From contig NZ_CP107931.1 in NCBI RefSeq assembly GCF_036023875.1, positions 930,001 through 994,000 of the forward strand: DNA of 64,000 bases, written 5' to 3'. The position numbers were made by a program, and so were the translations under genes. The DNA is from Mycobacterium sp. NBC_00419. Its GTDB lineage: Bacteria > Actinomycetota > Actinomycetes > Mycobacteriales > Mycobacteriaceae. The notes below the pieces were generated by a model. The model worked only from the letters and a program-made list of their open reading frames with translations. It had not been told where the DNA came from and did not search any database. Below are positions 3,001-58,002 of this stretch, in pieces; within the stretch, counting starts at the first letter, position 1; each line of letters begins with the position of its first letter.

Positions 3001-6000
3001 TCCTCGATCGACCTACTCGACGCCGATGAGCGTCATCGCCTGGGCGACTGGGGTAACCGCGTCGCGGCAACGGCGACCGACACCGCCGCGGTGTCGATTC
3101 CCCAGGCATTGGCCGCGCAGGTGGCCCGCACGCCCGACGCGGAAGCCGTGACCTGCGCGGGCACGTCGATGACCTACCGGCAGCTCGATGACACGTCGAA
3201 TCGGCTGGCACACCTGCTGGCTGACCACGGCGCCGGGCCCGGCGCGAATGTGGCGCTACTGCTTCCCCGCTGCACACAGGCGATTGTGGCCATGACCGCC
3301 GTGCTCAAGGCGGGCGCGGCGTATCTGCCGATCGACCCGGAATGGCCCACGGCCCGAGTCGAATTCATGCTGTCCGATGCCGCACCGGTCGCGGTGATCA
3401 CCACCGCTGCGCTGGTCGACCCGCTCGATGGGTCCGGTCTGCCGGTCATCGACGTCAGTGATCTCGAAGCCCCGCATATCCAGACCCACCCGGGCATCGC
3501 CCGTGCCGCGGTGGCTGCCGATGAGATCGCCTACGTCATCTACACATCCGGCACCACGGGCACCCCGAAGGGGGTGTCGGTCCCCCATCGCAACGTCACC
3601 CGGATGCTGGACTCACTGCGCACCGCGGTGCCACCGGCTGGGGTGTGGACCCAGTGCCACTCGAATGCCTTCGACTTCTCGGTGTGGGAGATCTGGGGTG
3701 CCCTGCTCGGCGGCGGACGGCTGGTGGTGGTCCCGGAGTCCGTCACCCGATCCCCTGATGACCTGCACGCATTACTGATCGCCGAACAGGTCAGCGTGTT
3801 GAGTCAGACACCCTCGGCGTTCTACGCACTGCAAGCCGTCGACGCGCTGGCGCCCGAGCCGGGTCGACAGCTGGCCCTCGACGCGGTGGTATTCGGCGGT
3901 GAAGCCCTTGAGCCACAGCGCCTTCGGAACTGGCTACACCGCCATCCGGACTCACCCATTCTGCTGAACATGTACGGCACCACCGAAACCACGGTGCACG
4001 CATCGTTGCGGGAGATCGCCGCCGACGACCTCGACCGCCGCGGCAGCCCGATCGGGGTTCCGTTGGCGCACCTGTCGTTCTTCGTTCTCGATGGGTGGCT
4101 ACGCCCGGTACCCGCCGGGGTGGTCGGAGAGTTGTATGTCGCCGGCGCCGGGGCCGGGTACGGGTATGTACGCCGAGCTGGATTGACTGCGTCGCGATTC
4201 GTGGCATGCCCGTTCGCGGGCCACGGATCCCGTATGTACCGCACCGGGGACCTCGTGCGGTGGGGCGCCGACGGCCAACTCCAGTACGTCGGCCGCGCCG
4301 ATGAGCAGGTCAAGATCCGCGGCTACCGCGTCGAGTTGGGTGAGATCGACAACGCCTTGCTGACATGCCCACAAGTCAGTCAGGCCGCCGCCACCGTCTA
4401 TCGCAACGAGGTCGGGGACGCCCACCTGATCGCCTATGTCACGCTCGACCACGGCGCAGCCGGCATCCGAGACACCGAGCAGGACGCCGACACCGTCGAA
4501 CAATGGCAACACGTCTACGACGAGCTCTACAGCGCCGAAACGGGATTGCCCGAATTCGGGATGGACTTCCGGGGCTGGAACAGCAGCCTGAGCGGCGATC
4601 CGATTCCACTCGAGGAGATGATCCAGTGGCGCGCAGCCACGGTGGATCGCATCCTGGCCCTGCAGCCACGGCGGGTGCTGGAGATCGGCGCGGGCTCGGG
4701 ACTGCTGCTGTCGCAGATCGCCCCCCACTGCGAACACTATGTCGCCACCGATGTTTCAGCGGTTGCGGTCGCCAACCTGGCCTACTCCCTGGAGCGCTTG
4801 GCGATCCCCTGGCGGGACCGCGTCGATCTGCTGACCCAACCGGCGCACGTGAGCACTGGTCTGCCACAGGGTTACTTCGACACGGTCATTCTCAACTCGG
4901 TCGTCCAGTACTTCCCGAGTGCGGACTACCTGGCCGACGTCATCAGCACTGCGATGGACCTGGTGGCGCCCGGGGGCAGGGTGTTCATCGGGGATATCCG
5001 CAACCACACCCTGCAGGGCGCGTTCCACACCGCTGTCGCCCTCGCGCACACCGCCTCCGACACCGCAGAGCTCCGGCACCGTGCCCGCCGCGCACAGGTC
5101 TCCGAATCCGAACTGTTGCTGGCACCAGAGTTCTTCACGCAGTGGGCAGCCGACCACCCCGCGGCGGCCGGGCTCGACATCCAAGTCAAGCGCGGATCGG
5201 CAGACAACGAACTCAACCGCTACCGCTATGACGTCGTCGTCCACACGTCGCCCACACCGGTGCGGACGATGGCGACCGCACCGGCCTGGCAGTGGACCCG
5301 ATGCGGGGATCTGGCCGGACTGCACACCGAGCTGACAAACTGGCGTCCCGACACCGTGCGCGTCACCGGAATCCCCCGCGCCGGACTGATCACCGACGTC
5401 CGGATCGAACACGCGCTCGCCGCCGGCCTGCCGCTGACCGATGCACTGGCCCGGGGCGCTGCACCCCCGGATGCCACCACCCCCGAAGACCTCTATCAAC
5501 TCGGCGACGACACCGGCTACCACGTCGCCGTCACCTGGGGTGCTGCACCCGGCACCCTCGATGCCGTTTTCCTGGATCGAACCGGTTCCGGGCAACGGCC
5601 ACCGCTGACCGACGTCTATCTGGCACACGCCGGGACTCGCCGGCGAGGCGCCCACGCCAACAGGCCGCACACCGACGCCGAGATCGGCGCGGTACGTGAG
5701 CAGTTGCGTGCGCGGTTGCCGGATTACATGGTGCCCAGGCAGATCATCGCGCTCGACGCGTTTCCGTTGACCTCTTCGGGCAAGCTTGATCGAGGTGCGT
5801 TGCCGGCGCCCGATTTCGAGGGTTCGGGGCGGTATCGGGCCCCTGGGGACGTGGTTGAGGAGATGCTGGCCGGTATCTACGCCCGGGTGCTGGGTGTGGA
5901 CCGGGTGGGGGTCGACGACTCGTTCTTCGATCTGGGTGGCGATTCGTTGTCGGCGATGCGGGTGATCGCTGCCGTCAATGCCGCTGTGGGTAGCGGTCTT

Positions 6001-52997: not shown

Positions 52998-54374
52998 TCA
53001 TGACGAAACACCCTCCGCCGCGGTATAGGCTCGCCAGCCTCCGTGCCGGCTGATCTCACGCTGACCCTCGACCAGAGCCGGCTCACCGAGCACGCCGAGA
53101 ACCGTTGAGCCGTCGGCAAGATTGACCTTGCCGATCGACAACCCGGGTGGCTCGTTCAACAGAATCCCCGCCAACCCGGCGGCGGGCACCGACCACACCT
53201 CCACTGCCACAGCCACTCCCGAGCCGTCGGTCACTCGGATCATGGCGGGGTGGTCGTCGTTGATGGTCCAGATTCGGTACACCGGTTCGGTGGCGGTCTC
53301 CTGGACGAACGTGGCACCGGCGGCGGCCATGTTGGGCGAGAGCTTGAGCCCGCGCATCAGGGTGCCGTTGACCGCAAGCAGCACTGCCCCCGAGTCGGGG
53401 GGCGCCGCCTGTGGCGCCACAGTGTTCGCACCGACGATCCGAGTACCCGATGTGCCGGCCAGGATCGCGGGGATCTCCTCAGCGGCACCGATGATTCCGG
53501 TACCACCGGGGGTGGTGGCGACGAAATCGGCGACGGCTTCGACCTTGGGTTCCATCGACCCCTTGCCGAACTGGCCGGAGGCGATGTACTGCCGGGCCTG
53601 CTCGACGGTGATGGTGTCGAGCCACCTCTCCTCCGGCGTGCCGAAACCGATCGCCACGCGCGGCACCCCGGTCGGGATCATCAACAGGTCCGCGCCCAAG
53701 TCGTGGGCAAGCAGACCCGAGGCAATGTCCTTGTCCACCACCGCTTCCACGCCGGCGATCGTCCCCTCGGGCGAGACGGTCACCGGGATGCCGCCACCAC
53801 CCACCGCGACCACGATCGCTCCGTCGTCGAGGAGCTTGCGAATCAGTTCCGTCTCCAGGATCGCCGTCGGTCGTGGCGAGGCGACGGTGCGTCGCCAGCC
53901 CCGCCCGGCGTCCTCGGCGATCGTCCAGCCCAGCGCCGCGGCCATCTGCGTGGCTTTGGTCTCGTCGAGGAACGAACCGACCGGCTTGGTCGGGTTGCCG
54001 AAGGCCGGATCGTCGAGACTGACCACCGAATGGGTGACCACCGCCACCACCGGGTGCGACAGCCCTCTGCGTGCCAGTTCGTTGCGCAGCGCCTTGACGA
54101 ACATGTAGCCGATCGCGCCCTGGGTATCGGCGACGGCATAGTCGACGGGCACCGGGTCGACCTCGTCGGAGGCCAACTCCGAGCGGCGCAGGATGAATCC
54201 GACCTGCGGCCCGTTGCCGTGGGAGACAACGAGTTTCCAGCCCTGTTCGACCATGTCGATCAGGGGTGGGACGGTCCGGCTGACGGTGTCGTACTGCTGC
54301 GGGATGGAGTCGTGCTCGGCGTCGGTGACAAGAGCATTTCCACCGAAGGCGACGATTGCGGTTCCCACACTCAC
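52998..54374 (-). CDS. Carbamate kinase fused to an allophanate-hydrolase C-terminal domain
   Basis: A 458-residue fusion. Residues 1 to ~315 are a complete carbamate kinase (AFGGNAL, SHGNGPQVG, VGGGGIPV, VDKDIAS), which makes ATP from carbamoyl phosphate and ADP. Residues ~327-458 match the C-terminal domain of allophanate hydrolase (AtzF/DUR1,2 type): VEVWSVP, GLSIGKVNLADG, and the ending HGGWRAY. In some allophanate hydrolases this domain handles the N-carboxycarbamate/carbamate product. The GTG at 54374 overlaps the DUF1116 stop (GTGA). It is the last gene of the FdrA operon. I know of no common fusion of this kind. Confidence 0.88.
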   Translation of the reverse strand: MSVGTAIVAFGGNALVTDAEHDSIPQQYDTVSRTVPPLIDMVEQGWKLVVSHGNGPQVGFILRRSELASDEVDPVPVDYAVADTQGAIGYMFVKALRNELARRGLSHPVVAVVTHSVVSLDDPAFGNPTKPVGSFLDETKATQMAAALGWTIAEDAGRGWRRTVASPRPTAILETELIRKLLDDGAIVVAVGGGGIPVTVSPEGTIAGVEAVVDKDIASGLLAHDLGADLLMIPTGVPRVAIGFGTPEERWLDTITVEQARQYIASGQFGKGSMEPKVEAVADFVATTPGGTGIIGAAEEIPAILAGTSGTRIVGANTVAPQAAPPDSGAVLLAVNGTLMRGLKLSPNMAAAGATFVQETATEPVYRIWTINDDHPAMIRVTDGSGVAVAVEVWSVPAAGLAGILLNEPPGLSIGKVNLADGSTVLGVLGEPALVEGQREISRHGGWRAYTAAEGVSS

Positions 54375-55780
54375 TCCAGTTCCGCCGCCAGCGCGGCCAG
54401 CGCGTCGTTGAAACATTCCATCGGCGCGGTGGTGATGCCCGCTCCGATCTGACCCACGCCCGCCTGCCGGTGGGCGATACCGGTGTTGATGATCGGCAGG
54501 ACGCCGGAGTCGACCACCAGCCGGGCATCGATTCCCGCCGGTGTGCCACCGAAGTTCAACGGCGGCAACGTGAATGCGGGGTTGGCGCCCAGCGTGATGG
54601 ACAGCATGCGGCGGCTGTTGGCCGTCGCATCCGCGGGTGTGCCGCCGACGAACTGAACGATCGCGGGCGAGGCCGCCATCGCGAATCCACCTAGGCCGTT
54701 GGTCTCGGTGATCGCCGAGTCACCCAGGTCGGCGGCCGCGTCGTCGACGGTATAGCCCGGAAAATACAGTCCATCAACAGGATTGGCGGGCGCCTGGAAC
54801 CACTGATCGCCAGTTCCGCTGAGCTTGATGCCGAAGTTCACGCCGTTGCGCGCCATCACGGTGACCATGCTGCTGCCCGGCACCCCCGCGGCGGCGTCGG
54901 TCATCGATTTGCAGGCCGCCATCGAGATATTGAGGAAGAAATGGTCGTTGCCGGCCACGAATTCCAAAGCCCGGCGCACCGCATCCGAGGGCAGATCAGA
55001 GCCCAGCAGCGACAGCGTCAGGCGTTTGAACAGCAGCGCCGAGGCGGCGGCATTGCGGTTGTGCAACTCGTCACCCATGTGCAGCGCTTGCGCCATCAGG
55101 GGTTTGAGGTCCGGGTCGGCCAGCCCCCGCACCGCGACCTGCATGGTGTCGAAGAAGTCGGTGCCCAGCCAGCGCAGCCGGTCGAGCACCTCCGGGGAGT
55201 TGGCACCGAAGCGCAGCACCTTGCCGAGGCCTTCGTTGAGGTTGCAGAACGCCACGTTTCCGGCCGCGGTGTTCTCCACCACCCACACCGGCATCGACGG
55301 GCTGATGATGCCGGCCATCGGCCCGACCGCACCGTGCTCGTGGCACGGTTCCAGCGCGACTGCCCCGCTCTCGGCCAACTTCTCGGCGGCGTCGAGATCG
55401 TCGGCCCAGCCTTCGTAGAGGATGGCCCCGGCGATGGCGCCGCGCTGCGGGCCGCACATGTCGGGCCAGGCGATCGGCGGCCCCGAGTGCAGGATTCGCC
55501 GCTCGTCCGGCCCCAGACCGGGAATCGCCGCACTGGCACGGACGAGGTCGATCAGCCGAGGTTGGGCAGCCAGGTAACGGCCGTAGGCCGTGTGGTTGGC
55601 GTCCTCGATCCGCGGATCACCCACCAGGGTGGCCAGCGTCCAGCCCAGTGCCGTATCAGCACTCGCCGGAGGTGCCCACGTCAGATTGGTGACCTGCCCA
55701 CCCGCCGCGGTGACGTTGTTGGCGAAACCCTGCAGGCCGATGTTGACGACCTTGAGGTCTTCGTCGAAGAGCTTCTTCAC
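54371..55780 (-). CDS. DUF1116 protein (YlbE/AllG-like), carbamoyltransferase component
   Basis: A 469-residue DUF1116 protein, related to E. coli YlbE, now called AllG and reported as one part of oxamate carbamoyltransferase with FdrA (AllF) and YlbF (AllH). Conserved blocks include HSGPPIAWPDMCGPQRGA, EPCHEHGAVGPMAGI and MARNGVNFGI. The GTG at 55780 overlaps the fdrA stop (GTGA). No DUF2877 (AllH) gene is visible nearby. Confidence 0.9.
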   Translation of the reverse strand: MKKLFDEDLKVVNIGLQGFANNVTAAGGQVTNLTWAPPASADTALGWTLATLVGDPRIEDANHTAYGRYLAAQPRLIDLVRASAAIPGLGPDERRILHSGPPIAWPDMCGPQRGAIAGAILYEGWADDLDAAEKLAESGAVALEPCHEHGAVGPMAGIISPSMPVWVVENTAAGNVAFCNLNEGLGKVLRFGANSPEVLDRLRWLGTDFFDTMQVAVRGLADPDLKPLMAQALHMGDELHNRNAAASALLFKRLTLSLLGSDLPSDAVRRALEFVAGNDHFFLNISMAACKSMTDAAAGVPGSSMVTVMARNGVNFGIKLSGTGDQWFQAPANPVDGLYFPGYTVDDAAADLGDSAITETNGLGGFAMAASPAIVQFVGGTPADATANSRRMLSITLGANPAFTLPPLNFGGTPAGIDARLVVDSGVLPIINTGIAHRQAGVGQIGAGITTAPMECFNDALAALAAELE

Positions 55781-57339
55781 GTGGCGACTCCTTCGCGCTC
55801 GGCGATCAGCGCCGCCGACCAGACCGCTGCCTCGGCATTGCTCGACGCGACGAGGACACCGGCCGCCTTCAGGCCGGCAACGGCTTTCGCGCGGTCCTGG
55901 GGATCCAGATCGGTGCCGCACACATAGCCGATGAACGCGACGGTGCGCCCTTCGGCGCGGGCCTTCGCCTTCGACGTGCCGATGATCGACATCAGTCCGG
56001 CGGTCGGATCGTCGGCGGATCCGTACCCGAGCACCACGTCGAACAGCACGACCGCTGTCGTCGGGTCGGCGACCTCGTCGCGGATGCGGGCGTCCTTCTG
56101 CGACGGGTCGATCATGGGATGCGGTCTGCCCTGGGTGAATTCGTCGTCACCCATGTCGACGATGGTGTTCTCCAGGCTGGTCCGGATGTCGGCCAGGGCG
56201 CTGTTGCCCTTGACCGGGGTGTTGGAGTATGCGGAGATGCCGCGGGCACGGTGCACCAGTTGGGCTTCGTAGCAGAAGGTTCCGCCGGAGAAGATGCCGC
56301 GTACATAGCGTTGGCTCGGCGCCATCGATCGCGCCAGATCGCCCAGCAAGCGGCGCATCTCGTTGGAGATGGTGATCTCCCCGGTGTGCGGCTCTTCGCC
56401 GCGAGCCAGCTCCACCGCCATGTCCGCGGCCTGCGCGAGGTAGGCGGCCCCGTACACCCCGTTGCCGGTGATCGAGGCCGGGTCCGCGCCGAGGAAGATG
56501 ACGACGACGGGTTTGTCGCTGGCTTCGGCGGCGGCGAGCACCTTGGCCGCGACATCGGGCGATGGCGGTTTGGAGACCAGCACGATCACCGACGTCCCTG
56601 GATCCGCATCCAGAGCGGCCAGGCCGTGCAGCATGGAGATACCACCGATGGCGTCGGCCAGGTCATGCCCGCCGGTGCCCAGCGCCTGGGAAATCCCCGA
56701 ACCGTTCTGGTGCACCCGGACGGTGACCTCCTGGGTGCCTGTCCCCGAGGCGCCGACGACACCGATCGGGCCGCGGCGCACCACATTGGCGAAGCCGAGC
56801 GGGATGCCGTTGACGATCGAGGTGCCGCAGTCGGGGCCCATGACCATCAGGTCGACGTCGCGGGCGTACTGCTTGAGCGCCAGCTCGGCTTCCGGGCTGA
56901 CGTTGTCGCTGAACACCATCACGTCCAGCCCCAGCCGCAAGGCCTTCATCGCCTCGGCGGCGGCGTAGTCGCCGGGCACCGAGATCAACGCCAGGTTCAG
57001 CGCCGGGTCCTTGGCCACGGCCATCTGGATGCTGGTGACCGGAGCGGCCGCAGCGGTGTCGTCACCGCCGCCCCCGGGGGCGGCAGACAGCAGTGAGTCG
57101 GCCAGGGCGAGCGCTTCTGCGCAGGCGTCCTCGGTGCCCGAGACCGCGACGACGAGGTCGTTGGGCCGAACCTCGAAGGTACCGAGGCCGGCCTGGGCGA
57201 GGTTGTCGACATTGGTGGCCGAGGCCATCACCACCGAGGCGGCGTCGATCCCCGGTACCGAGGTCACCTGCGCCGAGACCGTCATCAAGGACACCGAATC
57301 CTTGTAGAGGTTGGGGTAGAACCGGGATCCGGTGCTCAT
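55777..57339 (-). CDS. fdrA: FdrA, acyl-CoA-synthetase-like carbamoyltransferase subunit
   Basis: A 520-residue protein built like succinyl-CoA synthetase alpha/beta domains. The phosphohistidine-loop region and nucleotide fold are visible (MGPDCGTSIVNGIPLGFANVV, then GVVGASGTGTQEVT, TGGHDL). It is homologous to E. coli FdrA (AllF), reported as part of the complex that exchanges oxalurate and phosphate for oxamate and carbamoyl phosphate. It starts four bases after the hydrolase stop and overlaps the DUF1116 gene. Confidence 0.93.
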   Translation of the reverse strand: MSTGSRFYPNLYKDSVSLMTVSAQVTSVPGIDAASVVMASATNVDNLAQAGLGTFEVRPNDLVVAVSGTEDACAEALALADSLLSAAPGGGGDDTAAAAPVTSIQMAVAKDPALNLALISVPGDYAAAEAMKALRLGLDVMVFSDNVSPEAELALKQYARDVDLMVMGPDCGTSIVNGIPLGFANVVRRGPIGVVGASGTGTQEVTVRVHQNGSGISQALGTGGHDLADAIGGISMLHGLAALDADPGTSVIVLVSKPPSPDVAAKVLAAAEASDKPVVVIFLGADPASITGNGVYGAAYLAQAADMAVELARGEEPHTGEITISNEMRRLLGDLARSMAPSQRYVRGIFSGGTFCYEAQLVHRARGISAYSNTPVKGNSALADIRTSLENTIVDMGDDEFTQGRPHPMIDPSQKDARIRDEVADPTTAVVLFDVVLGYGSADDPTAGLMSIIGTSKAKARAEGRTVAFIGYVCGTDLDPQDRAKAVAGLKAAGVLVASSNAEAAVWSAALIAEREGVAT

Positions 57340-57342
57340 CGG

Positions 57343-58002
57343 TCAGGACACCGCGGCCAGGAAGCGCTCGGAGTCCGAGACCCAGCCGAAGATGCCGCCC
57401 TGGGCCTTGATCATCTCCAGGGCCACACGCTGGAACTCCGGGAAGTAGGAGGCCACGCCGTCGGACAGCACCAGACATTCGTAGCCGCGATCGTTGGCCT
57501 CGCGGACGGTGGTGTGCACGCACACCTCGGTGGTCACCCCGCAGACGACGAGGGTTTTGATGCCGCGGTCGGACAGGATCTGGCCGAAGTCGGTGGCGTG
57601 GAAGGTGCCCTTGCCGGGCTTGTCGATCACCGGCTCGCCGTCGATCGGATACAGCTCGTCGATGATGTCGTGGCCCTGTTCGCCGCGGATCAGGATGCGG
57701 CCCATCGGGCCGGGCTCACCGATGAAGGTTTGCCCGCCGCGGTGCAGCTTGGCCGAGGGACAGTCGGACAGGTCGGGACGGTGTCCCTCGCGGGTGTGGA
57801 CGACGAGCATTCCGATCTCGCGTGCCCGGGTCAACACCCGCTGAATCGGCTCGACGGCGGCGAGCAGCAGTGAGGTGTCGTTGCCGAGCGCCTCACCGAA
57901 TCCGCCGGGCAAGACGAAATCCCGTTGCATGTCGATGATGACCAGCGCGGTGCTGTCCACATCGAATTCGAGGGGGAAAGGTTCTGCATCGATCGTGGGC
58001 AT
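57343..58002 (-). CDS. Isochorismatase-family amide hydrolase, biuret-hydrolase-like
   Basis: A 219-residue cysteine hydrolase. The triad is Asp24 (IIDMQRDF), Lys128 (DKPGKGTF) and Cys161 ([11 protein letters not shown]). The blocks [18 protein letters not shown] and [14 protein letters not shown] resemble biuret amidohydrolase (BiuH) of Rhizobium more than nicotinamidase or isochorismatase. A biuret, ureide or oxamate amide bond is a likely target. It is the first gene of the operon; AGAAGGGA precedes the ATG at 58002. Confidence 0.9.

Follow-up and report, generated by a model that had tools for sequence, protein, structure and literature searches.

A mycobacterial carbamate kinase fused to an allophanate-hydrolase-type C-terminal domain, in a predicted operon with a possible role in triuret degradation

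On its minus strand, a 64,000-nucleotide stretch of the Mycobacterium sp. NBC_00419 genome (contig NZ_CP107931.1, positions 930,001 to 994,000; hereafter the window) carries a gene in which a carbamate kinase (CK) is joined to the C-terminal domain of allophanate hydrolase (AH_C). The fusion was found to be real and no assembly error, and it is the last gene in the order TrtA-type hydrolase, AllF, AllG, CK-AH_C; the four genes likely form one operon, read as a putative single transcript. That this operon degrades triuret or a close ureide, conserving part of the energy as ATP, is given an even chance. The features concerned are as follows.

52998..54374, minus strand: CK-AH_C fusion, 458 aa, GTG start, 4-nt overlap with the AllG stop
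53430..54374, minus strand: CK domain, residues 1-315
53385..53429, minus strand: linker, residues 316-330
53019..53384, minus strand: AH_C domain, residues 331-452
53151..53153, minus strand: codon of Glu408, candidate catalytic acid/base of AH_C
54371..55780, minus strand: AllG transcarbamylase subunit, about 469 aa (PF06545, E 6.4e-92; PDB 3clq, E 3.8e-121)
55777..57339, minus strand: AllF (FdrA) transcarbamylase subunit, 520 aa (NF004760, 458.7 bits against a cut-off of 433; PDB FdrA 3dmy, E 3.6e-81)
57343..58002, minus strand: TrtA-type isochorismatase-family cysteine hydrolase, 219 aa, predicted triuret hydrolase (PDB match and residue signature)

The initial annotation of the fusion gene, which made no mention of the upstream TrtA-type hydrolase, AllF and AllG, had described, without giving the strand, a complete kinase followed by an allophanate hydrolase C-domain without the amidase domain, and all three points were borne out. 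In the Pfam search, AA_kinase matched residues 5-285 of the 458-aa protein, and in the PDB sequence comparison the CK half aligned to the carbamate kinase 1e19 over residues 6-314, carbamate kinase sequence and fold being present along the whole kinase domain. Among the NCBIfam models, NF009007 scored 334.4 against a cut-off of 266; the arcC equivalog reached 343.7, below 358.25, and the carbamate kinase models NF009008 and NF006926 likewise stayed below their cut-offs. By sequence and fold the CK half is a carbamate kinase, for which activity with carbamoyl phosphate and ADP is predicted. The tail matched PF21986 over residues 332-451 with 126.3 bits, exceeding the Pfam gathering score of 27, and aligned to 5c5z, a solo AH_C from uropathogenic E. 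coli, with allophanate hydrolases aligning more weakly. No amidase precedes AH_C; CK stands in its place, and the allophanate hydrolase model TIGR02713 reached 95.6 of 511.05 bits. The AlphaFold2 model of the fusion had a mean pLDDT of 91.2, falling below 50 at linker residues 322-327, and in a structure search with this model both halves matched solved structures.

Both domains were found in all 120 listed matches of the window protein (the best 120 of 8000 scored), as well as in all 120 of a fused relative labelled Acetobacteraceae (again the best 120 of 8000 scored); the two overlapping lists combined gave at least 162 distinct proteins with CK and AH_C. Two marker motifs, both located in 138 of the fused proteins, were spaced 6-30 residues apart there. 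At the mycobacterial loci L001-L017, the CK/AH_C junction was open and fused in 16 of 17, the other (L004) having a stop codon inside the linker that leaves the halves unfused; in L015 the junction is fused and the reading frame breaks further on, within AH_C. A second congener with unfused halves (G038) has separate CK and AH_C cistrons, which overlap and are read in different frames. From the many fused relatives and the unfused congeners, the fused protein is therefore taken as a genuine variant of a modular pair.

Related arrangements were seen on the side. A 615-aa chain (P0114) comprises the end of AllG, CK and AH_C, and another mycobacterial genome (L163, G558:C1:4675000-4687500) holds AllG and CK fragments beside a full-length AH_C, apparently a decayed remnant of the operon. 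AH_C matches, falling into several kinds, were present in 125 of 248 sampled genomes of the genus. Further solo AH_C groups (L149-L153, L164-L166) lie outside the operon; the one at L152 adjoins formamidase-family and amidohydrolase-family genes.

Upstream of the fusion, AllG starts with GTG at 55780 and overlaps the AllF stop by 4 nt, and the same gene order was found in all 16 mycobacterial loci for which upstream DNA was at hand. AllF and AllG of the oxamate transcarbamylase AllFGH are both present at the locus. AllF matches the FdrA model NF004760 only up to position 497 of 555, and model positions 508-552 match the N-terminus of AllG, weakly, with E 1.2e-4 (frame opened at 55786); the end of the FdrA model lying in AllG and not in AllF, this AllFG is arranged differently. 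The E. coli system of AllFGH and the catabolic carbamate kinase AllK employs the same AllF, AllG and CK families, forming carbamoyl phosphate and then ATP (PMC11326118). In contrast to it, the window operon is led by a TrtA-type hydrolase, is without AllH, has an AH_C on its CK and carries the end of the FdrA model on AllG. None of the four operon genes is an amidase according to the Pfam search. A urease alpha match of 176.7 bits was present in the own genome, which speaks neither for nor against urea as an end product.

For the hydrolase, the best PDB match was TrtA 6xix with 277 bits, the biuret hydrolase entries scoring 227-232 bits (TrtA and BiuH entries being assigned according to PMC7948467 and the PDB name of 6xjm), and the BiuH model NF050097 gave 276.3 bits, below its cut-off of 370. 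Among the residues listed in PMC7948467 as separating TrtA from BiuH, the specificity residues F35, N41, E160, Y187 and I205 of TrtA are present, with T in place of A134; D24, K129, C162 and Q202, which include the catalytic triad, are present as well. Assignment as BiuH was ruled out by scores and specificity residues. The hydrolase is most likely TrtA-type, and its action on triuret is predicted. Among the five isochorismatase matches of the own genome, no further one close to TrtA or BiuH was found. The TrtA-type first step is shared with the TrtA-TrtB-BiuH-AtzF triuret pathway of Herbaspirillum (PMC7948467), whereas the window has AllFG-CK instead of BiuH and AtzF, no BiuH-like gene having been found in the own genome.

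By its residues, the window AH_C is placed in a subfamily apart from AtzF-type domains. Position 408 is Glu in 100% (rounded) of 285 clade sequences and Leu in 94% of 32 AtzF-type sequences. At positions 339 and 375 the window protein has L339 and H375, as do 99% (L) and 94% (H) of the clade (n = 285), the AtzF-type sequences having His in 100% and Lys in 100% (n = 32). The set N336, T338, R341, E392, E408 and W447 is conserved in the clade, each residue in 99-100% of the 285. The AtzF group of 32 consists of the remaining PF21986 matches, mostly long frames, and amidase and AH_C in the same frame were seen only in L148, L192, L214 and L218. Compared with the AtzF C-terminal domain, the window AH_C is thus without an amidase, belongs to a separate clade and has L, H and E in place of H339, K375 and L408. 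A stray AtzF tail was ruled out by tree and residues; the PF21986 family holds at least two kinds of AH_C by sequence. The C-domain of the K. lactis allophanate hydrolase is reportedly credited with the decarboxylation of N-carboxycarbamate.

Outside mycobacteria, the loci seen from Nitrospirota, Chloroflexota, E. coli and Photobacterium carried AH_C as a gene of its own. An E. coli plasmid has hydrolase, AllH (286 aa when read from a start lying upstream of the annotated one), AllF, AllG, CK, solo AH_C, cytosine-type permease and LysR in that order, and the part between hydrolase and permease, both included, is arranged identically in Photobacterium. The operon genes are annotated as cysteine hydrolase, hypothetical protein, carbamate kinase, glutamyl-tRNA amidotransferase and cytosine permease. 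A match to the E. coli stretch was found in 1547 of 5426 E. coli genomes, with at least 80% of the stretch covered in 1543, a count of DNA coverage and not of the intactness of each copy. The uropathogenic E. coli gene c4763 (PDB 5c5z) is likewise separate, unlike the window fusion, and is said to serve urea breakdown (PMC7558591, citing the c4763 paper).

In a survey across phyla, hydrolases were collected at E <= 1e-40 and about 20 kb was fetched per locus, less on short contigs (L183, L191 and the Chloroflexota locus L209); of 33 Nitrospirota places, G885:C60, G873:C53, G859:C118, G859:C13 and G680:C12 at 161529 were left out, and L154 and L162 are repeats of L007 and L004. Genomes with such a hydrolase numbered 14 among 245 Nitrospirota, 16 among 400 Chloroflexota and 14 among 396 Actinomycetota, counting the own genome. 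AllG and CK stood near a TrtA-type hydrolase in 19/19 mycobacterial loci (17 genomes), 7/12 Nitrospirota, 9/13 Chloroflexota, 1/5 other Actinomycetota and 2/5 plasmid loci; for AH_C of the E408 type the figures were 19/19 mycobacterial, 11/12 Nitrospirota, 10/13 Chloroflexota and 2/5 plasmid loci. Thirteen loci had the BiuH type only, with AllG and CK in two and E408-type AH_C in one (L222). A hydrolase with the TrtA signature FNEYI was present in all 36 loci with AllG, CK and E408-type AH_C, two mycobacterial ones being repeats; five of 18 fetched Nitrospirota loci had hydrolases of neither TrtA nor BiuH type (YLEGI). Among the loci L018-L080, which were found through CK, 14 had AllF or AllG, and the hydrolase was present only in L018, together with AH_C, and in L027, without it; the other 12 had neither hydrolase nor AH_C within the stretch examined.

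In Nitrospirota, the junction was read in 8 loci (L183 and L191 were left out). In 7 of them AH_C begins inside the end of the TrtA gene, overlapping it by 4 nt in L182, L184, L186, L187 and L188 and by 14 nt in L185 and L189, whereas in L190 AH_C begins after the TrtA stop. Three amidase queries gave no match in the Nitrospirota stretches L182 and L184-L190. PMC12625717 mentions an atzF that is collocated in Nitrospira_D with trtA and biuH, an annotation that may refer to the solo AH_C beside trtA. Amidase matches occurred in 13 non-mycobacterial loci: eight of BiuH type without an intact TrtA type (L146, L147, L192, L211, L212, L218, L221, L222), four of TrtA type only (L144, L214, L215, L216) and one with both types (L148). 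L192 combines the BiuH type and a hydrolase fragment with AllFGH-CK and AtzF.

Three further arrangements were recorded. L222 (G248) holds a BiuH-type hydrolase, an amidase, a carbon-nitrogen hydrolase and an E408-type solo AH_C. In L214 and L217, an AllG-like gene on the opposite strand adjoins the TrtA-type hydrolase, without AllF or CK. Related permease-like proteins of 528-557 aa lie next to or near the hydrolase (L203:10368-11957, L199:10076-11662, L201:10003-11619, L027:2683-4356 and 4395-5990), in three Chloroflexota loci between hydrolase and AH_C; up to E 1, Pfam gave no match for any of them.

What was observed is the gene content and its order, the overlaps, the domain families, the residue signatures and the spread; the substrates and reactions that follow are predictions for this organism. 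The TrtA-type hydrolase would convert triuret to 1-carboxybiuret and NH3. AllF-AllG, as a relative of oxamate transcarbamylase, would use phosphate to split a carbamoyl group off the ureide as carbamoyl phosphate, from which the CK half would form ATP and carbamate, the latter falling apart to NH3 and CO2. The AH_C half, a small domain with the gamma-glutamylcyclotransferase (GGCT) fold, would act as an enzyme and remove CO2 from the N-carboxylated ureide of the pathway, either 1-carboxybiuret, replacing TrtB, or allophanate released by AllFG along with carbamoyl phosphate. The allophanate option would explain the fusion best, because one polypeptide would take both AllFG products. In E. coli, AllFGH converts oxalurate to carbamoyl phosphate and has a catabolic kinase as its partner (PMC11326118), and 1-carboxybiuret and allophanate can be regarded as acylureas like oxalurate; AllF-AllG may thus phosphorolyse either of them. 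Since carboxybiuret and allophanate decay spontaneously, the latter to urea (PMC6219798), any domain that acts on one of them would prevent such a loss or steer it. For AH_C, action on carboxybiuret is proposed tentatively, action on allophanate is rather doubtful, and a non-catalytic organising role and other chemistry are each considered unlikely. The full scheme of phosphorolytic triuret use, in which AllF-AllG acts on 1-carboxybiuret or allophanate and not on oxalurate, CK gains ATP and the Glu-type AH_C, fused in mycobacteria, decarboxylates an unstable intermediate, is put at somewhat less than an even chance.

Several points weigh against this triuret scheme. AllH (PF11392) had no match in the own genome or in 15 further mycobacterial genomes with the operon (0/16), and so was not found elsewhere in the genome either; E. 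coli needs AllH together with AllF and AllG (PMC11326118). 1-Carboxybiuret turns into biuret spontaneously with a half-life of about 20 min (PMC7948467), and if AH_C made biuret, AllFG would have to use it, the own genome having yielded no BiuH-like gene. AtzF remains functional when its C-terminal part is missing (PMC3944691), so that AH_C may have a structural role, and with His339 and Lys375 of the AtzF type missing, AtzF activity is not transferable to this AH_C. An hhalign comparison of AH_C with two GGACT proteins placed E408 on their Glu without significance (E 0.03-0.045, probability <2%). Because the survey started from the hydrolase, its rates are conditional on that gene, and its rows, coming in part from related genomes, are not independent by descent. 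E408-type AH_C was near the TrtA-type hydrolase in 0/5 loci of other Actinomycetota. In G065 and G636 a TrtA-AllFGH-CK cluster is present although the whole genome gave no AH_C match, so that AH_C can be dispensed with. The TrtA-type hydrolase of L180 has no partner gene within 19.9 kb, L214-L216 and L144 have an amidase beside a TrtA-type hydrolase instead of AllFG-CK, and L212 combines a BiuH-type hydrolase with AllFGH-CK and an AtzE-like amidase.

Some of the alternatives overlap with the triuret scheme, so that the probabilities need not add up to one. It is unlikely, but consistent with AH_C being found fused to CK, solo or overlapping TrtA and missing from some clusters, that AH_C is a non-catalytic organiser which sets the oligomer or holds TrtA, AllFG and CK together, keeping unstable intermediates; the nearly invariant residue set of the clade (99-100% of 285) suggests an active site, without proving one.

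To a similarly low degree, the operon might serve oxalurate or another purine- or pyrimidine-derived ureide, the hydrolase not being a triuret hydrolase. This would agree with E. coli AllFGH being an oxalurate enzyme (PMC11326118), with allFGHK next to trtA and biuH in nitrifiers being taken as oxalurate and triuret pathways (PMC12625717), and with the E. coli operon being taken as nitrogen acquisition from pyrimidines (PMC12928451). Against it stand the FNEYI signature in 36/36 loci with AllG, CK and E408-type AH_C, found through the hydrolase, and the different arrangement of AllFG, with the end of the FdrA model matching the start of AllG.

An improbable alternative is that AH_C catalyses no decarboxylation but a reaction of the cyclotransferase kind, in which E408 would serve as acid/base in the manner of GGCT enzymes. 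The AH_C fold matches structures of GGCT and of gamma-glutamylamine cyclotransferase (GGACT), AH_C being 13-16% identical to the aligned GGACT chains; GGACT relatives were seen only with the AH_C domain alone as query, VIA-align with the whole model giving only AH_C relatives for the tail among the 50 rows listed. The AH_C of the Nitrospirota locus L018 gives a Pfam GGACT match over 5-118 with E 2.1e-12. GGCT enzymes have a YGSL motif and a catalytic Glu in common (PMC7022552), and NGTLMRG and E408 are found in the clade. However, E408 and the GGCT Glu were equated from model coordinates and a non-significant profile alignment, and no cyclisable substrate is evident in the pathway.

The direct handling of the carbamate of the attached CK by AH_C, as proposed in the initial annotation and suggested by the fusion itself, found no support and is very improbable: the subfamily is without the AtzF-type His and Lys, the operon has no amidase to make N-carboxycarbamate, and AH_C is a separate gene in the loci seen from Nitrospirota, Chloroflexota, E. 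coli and Photobacterium, in Nitrospirota joined to TrtA and not to CK (overlap in 7/8 loci), so that the common partner of AH_C is the ureide pathway and not the product of CK. An assembly error or frameshift joining two genes, a possibility the same annotation had raised and to which the unfused halves in two congeners would lend themselves, has a negligible probability and is refuted by the fused relatives (at least 162 proteins sharing the architecture) and by junctions fused in 16 of 17 mycobacterial loci.

In line with the view that the fusion had not been described before, no description was found in the openly licensed literature searched, and the excerpts of the closest papers, PMC12625717 and PMC12928451, name neither a CK-AH_C fusion nor a phosphorolytic triuret route. 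Given at least two kinds of AH_C by sequence, calling a solo AH_C gene an allophanate hydrolase can be misleading. The scheme provides a testable substrate for an operon with generic annotations, of which 1543 of 5426 E. coli genomes contain at least 80%. If phosphorolytic triuret use is true, the same module would explain the E. coli operon with a c4763-like gene, in more than a quarter of the genomes searched, as well as the AH_C gene beside Nitrospirota trtA; it would be a candidate for the step left open in comammox by PMC12625717, carboxybiuret decarboxylation without trtB, and FdrA-type transcarbamylases would serve more than allantoin fermentation.
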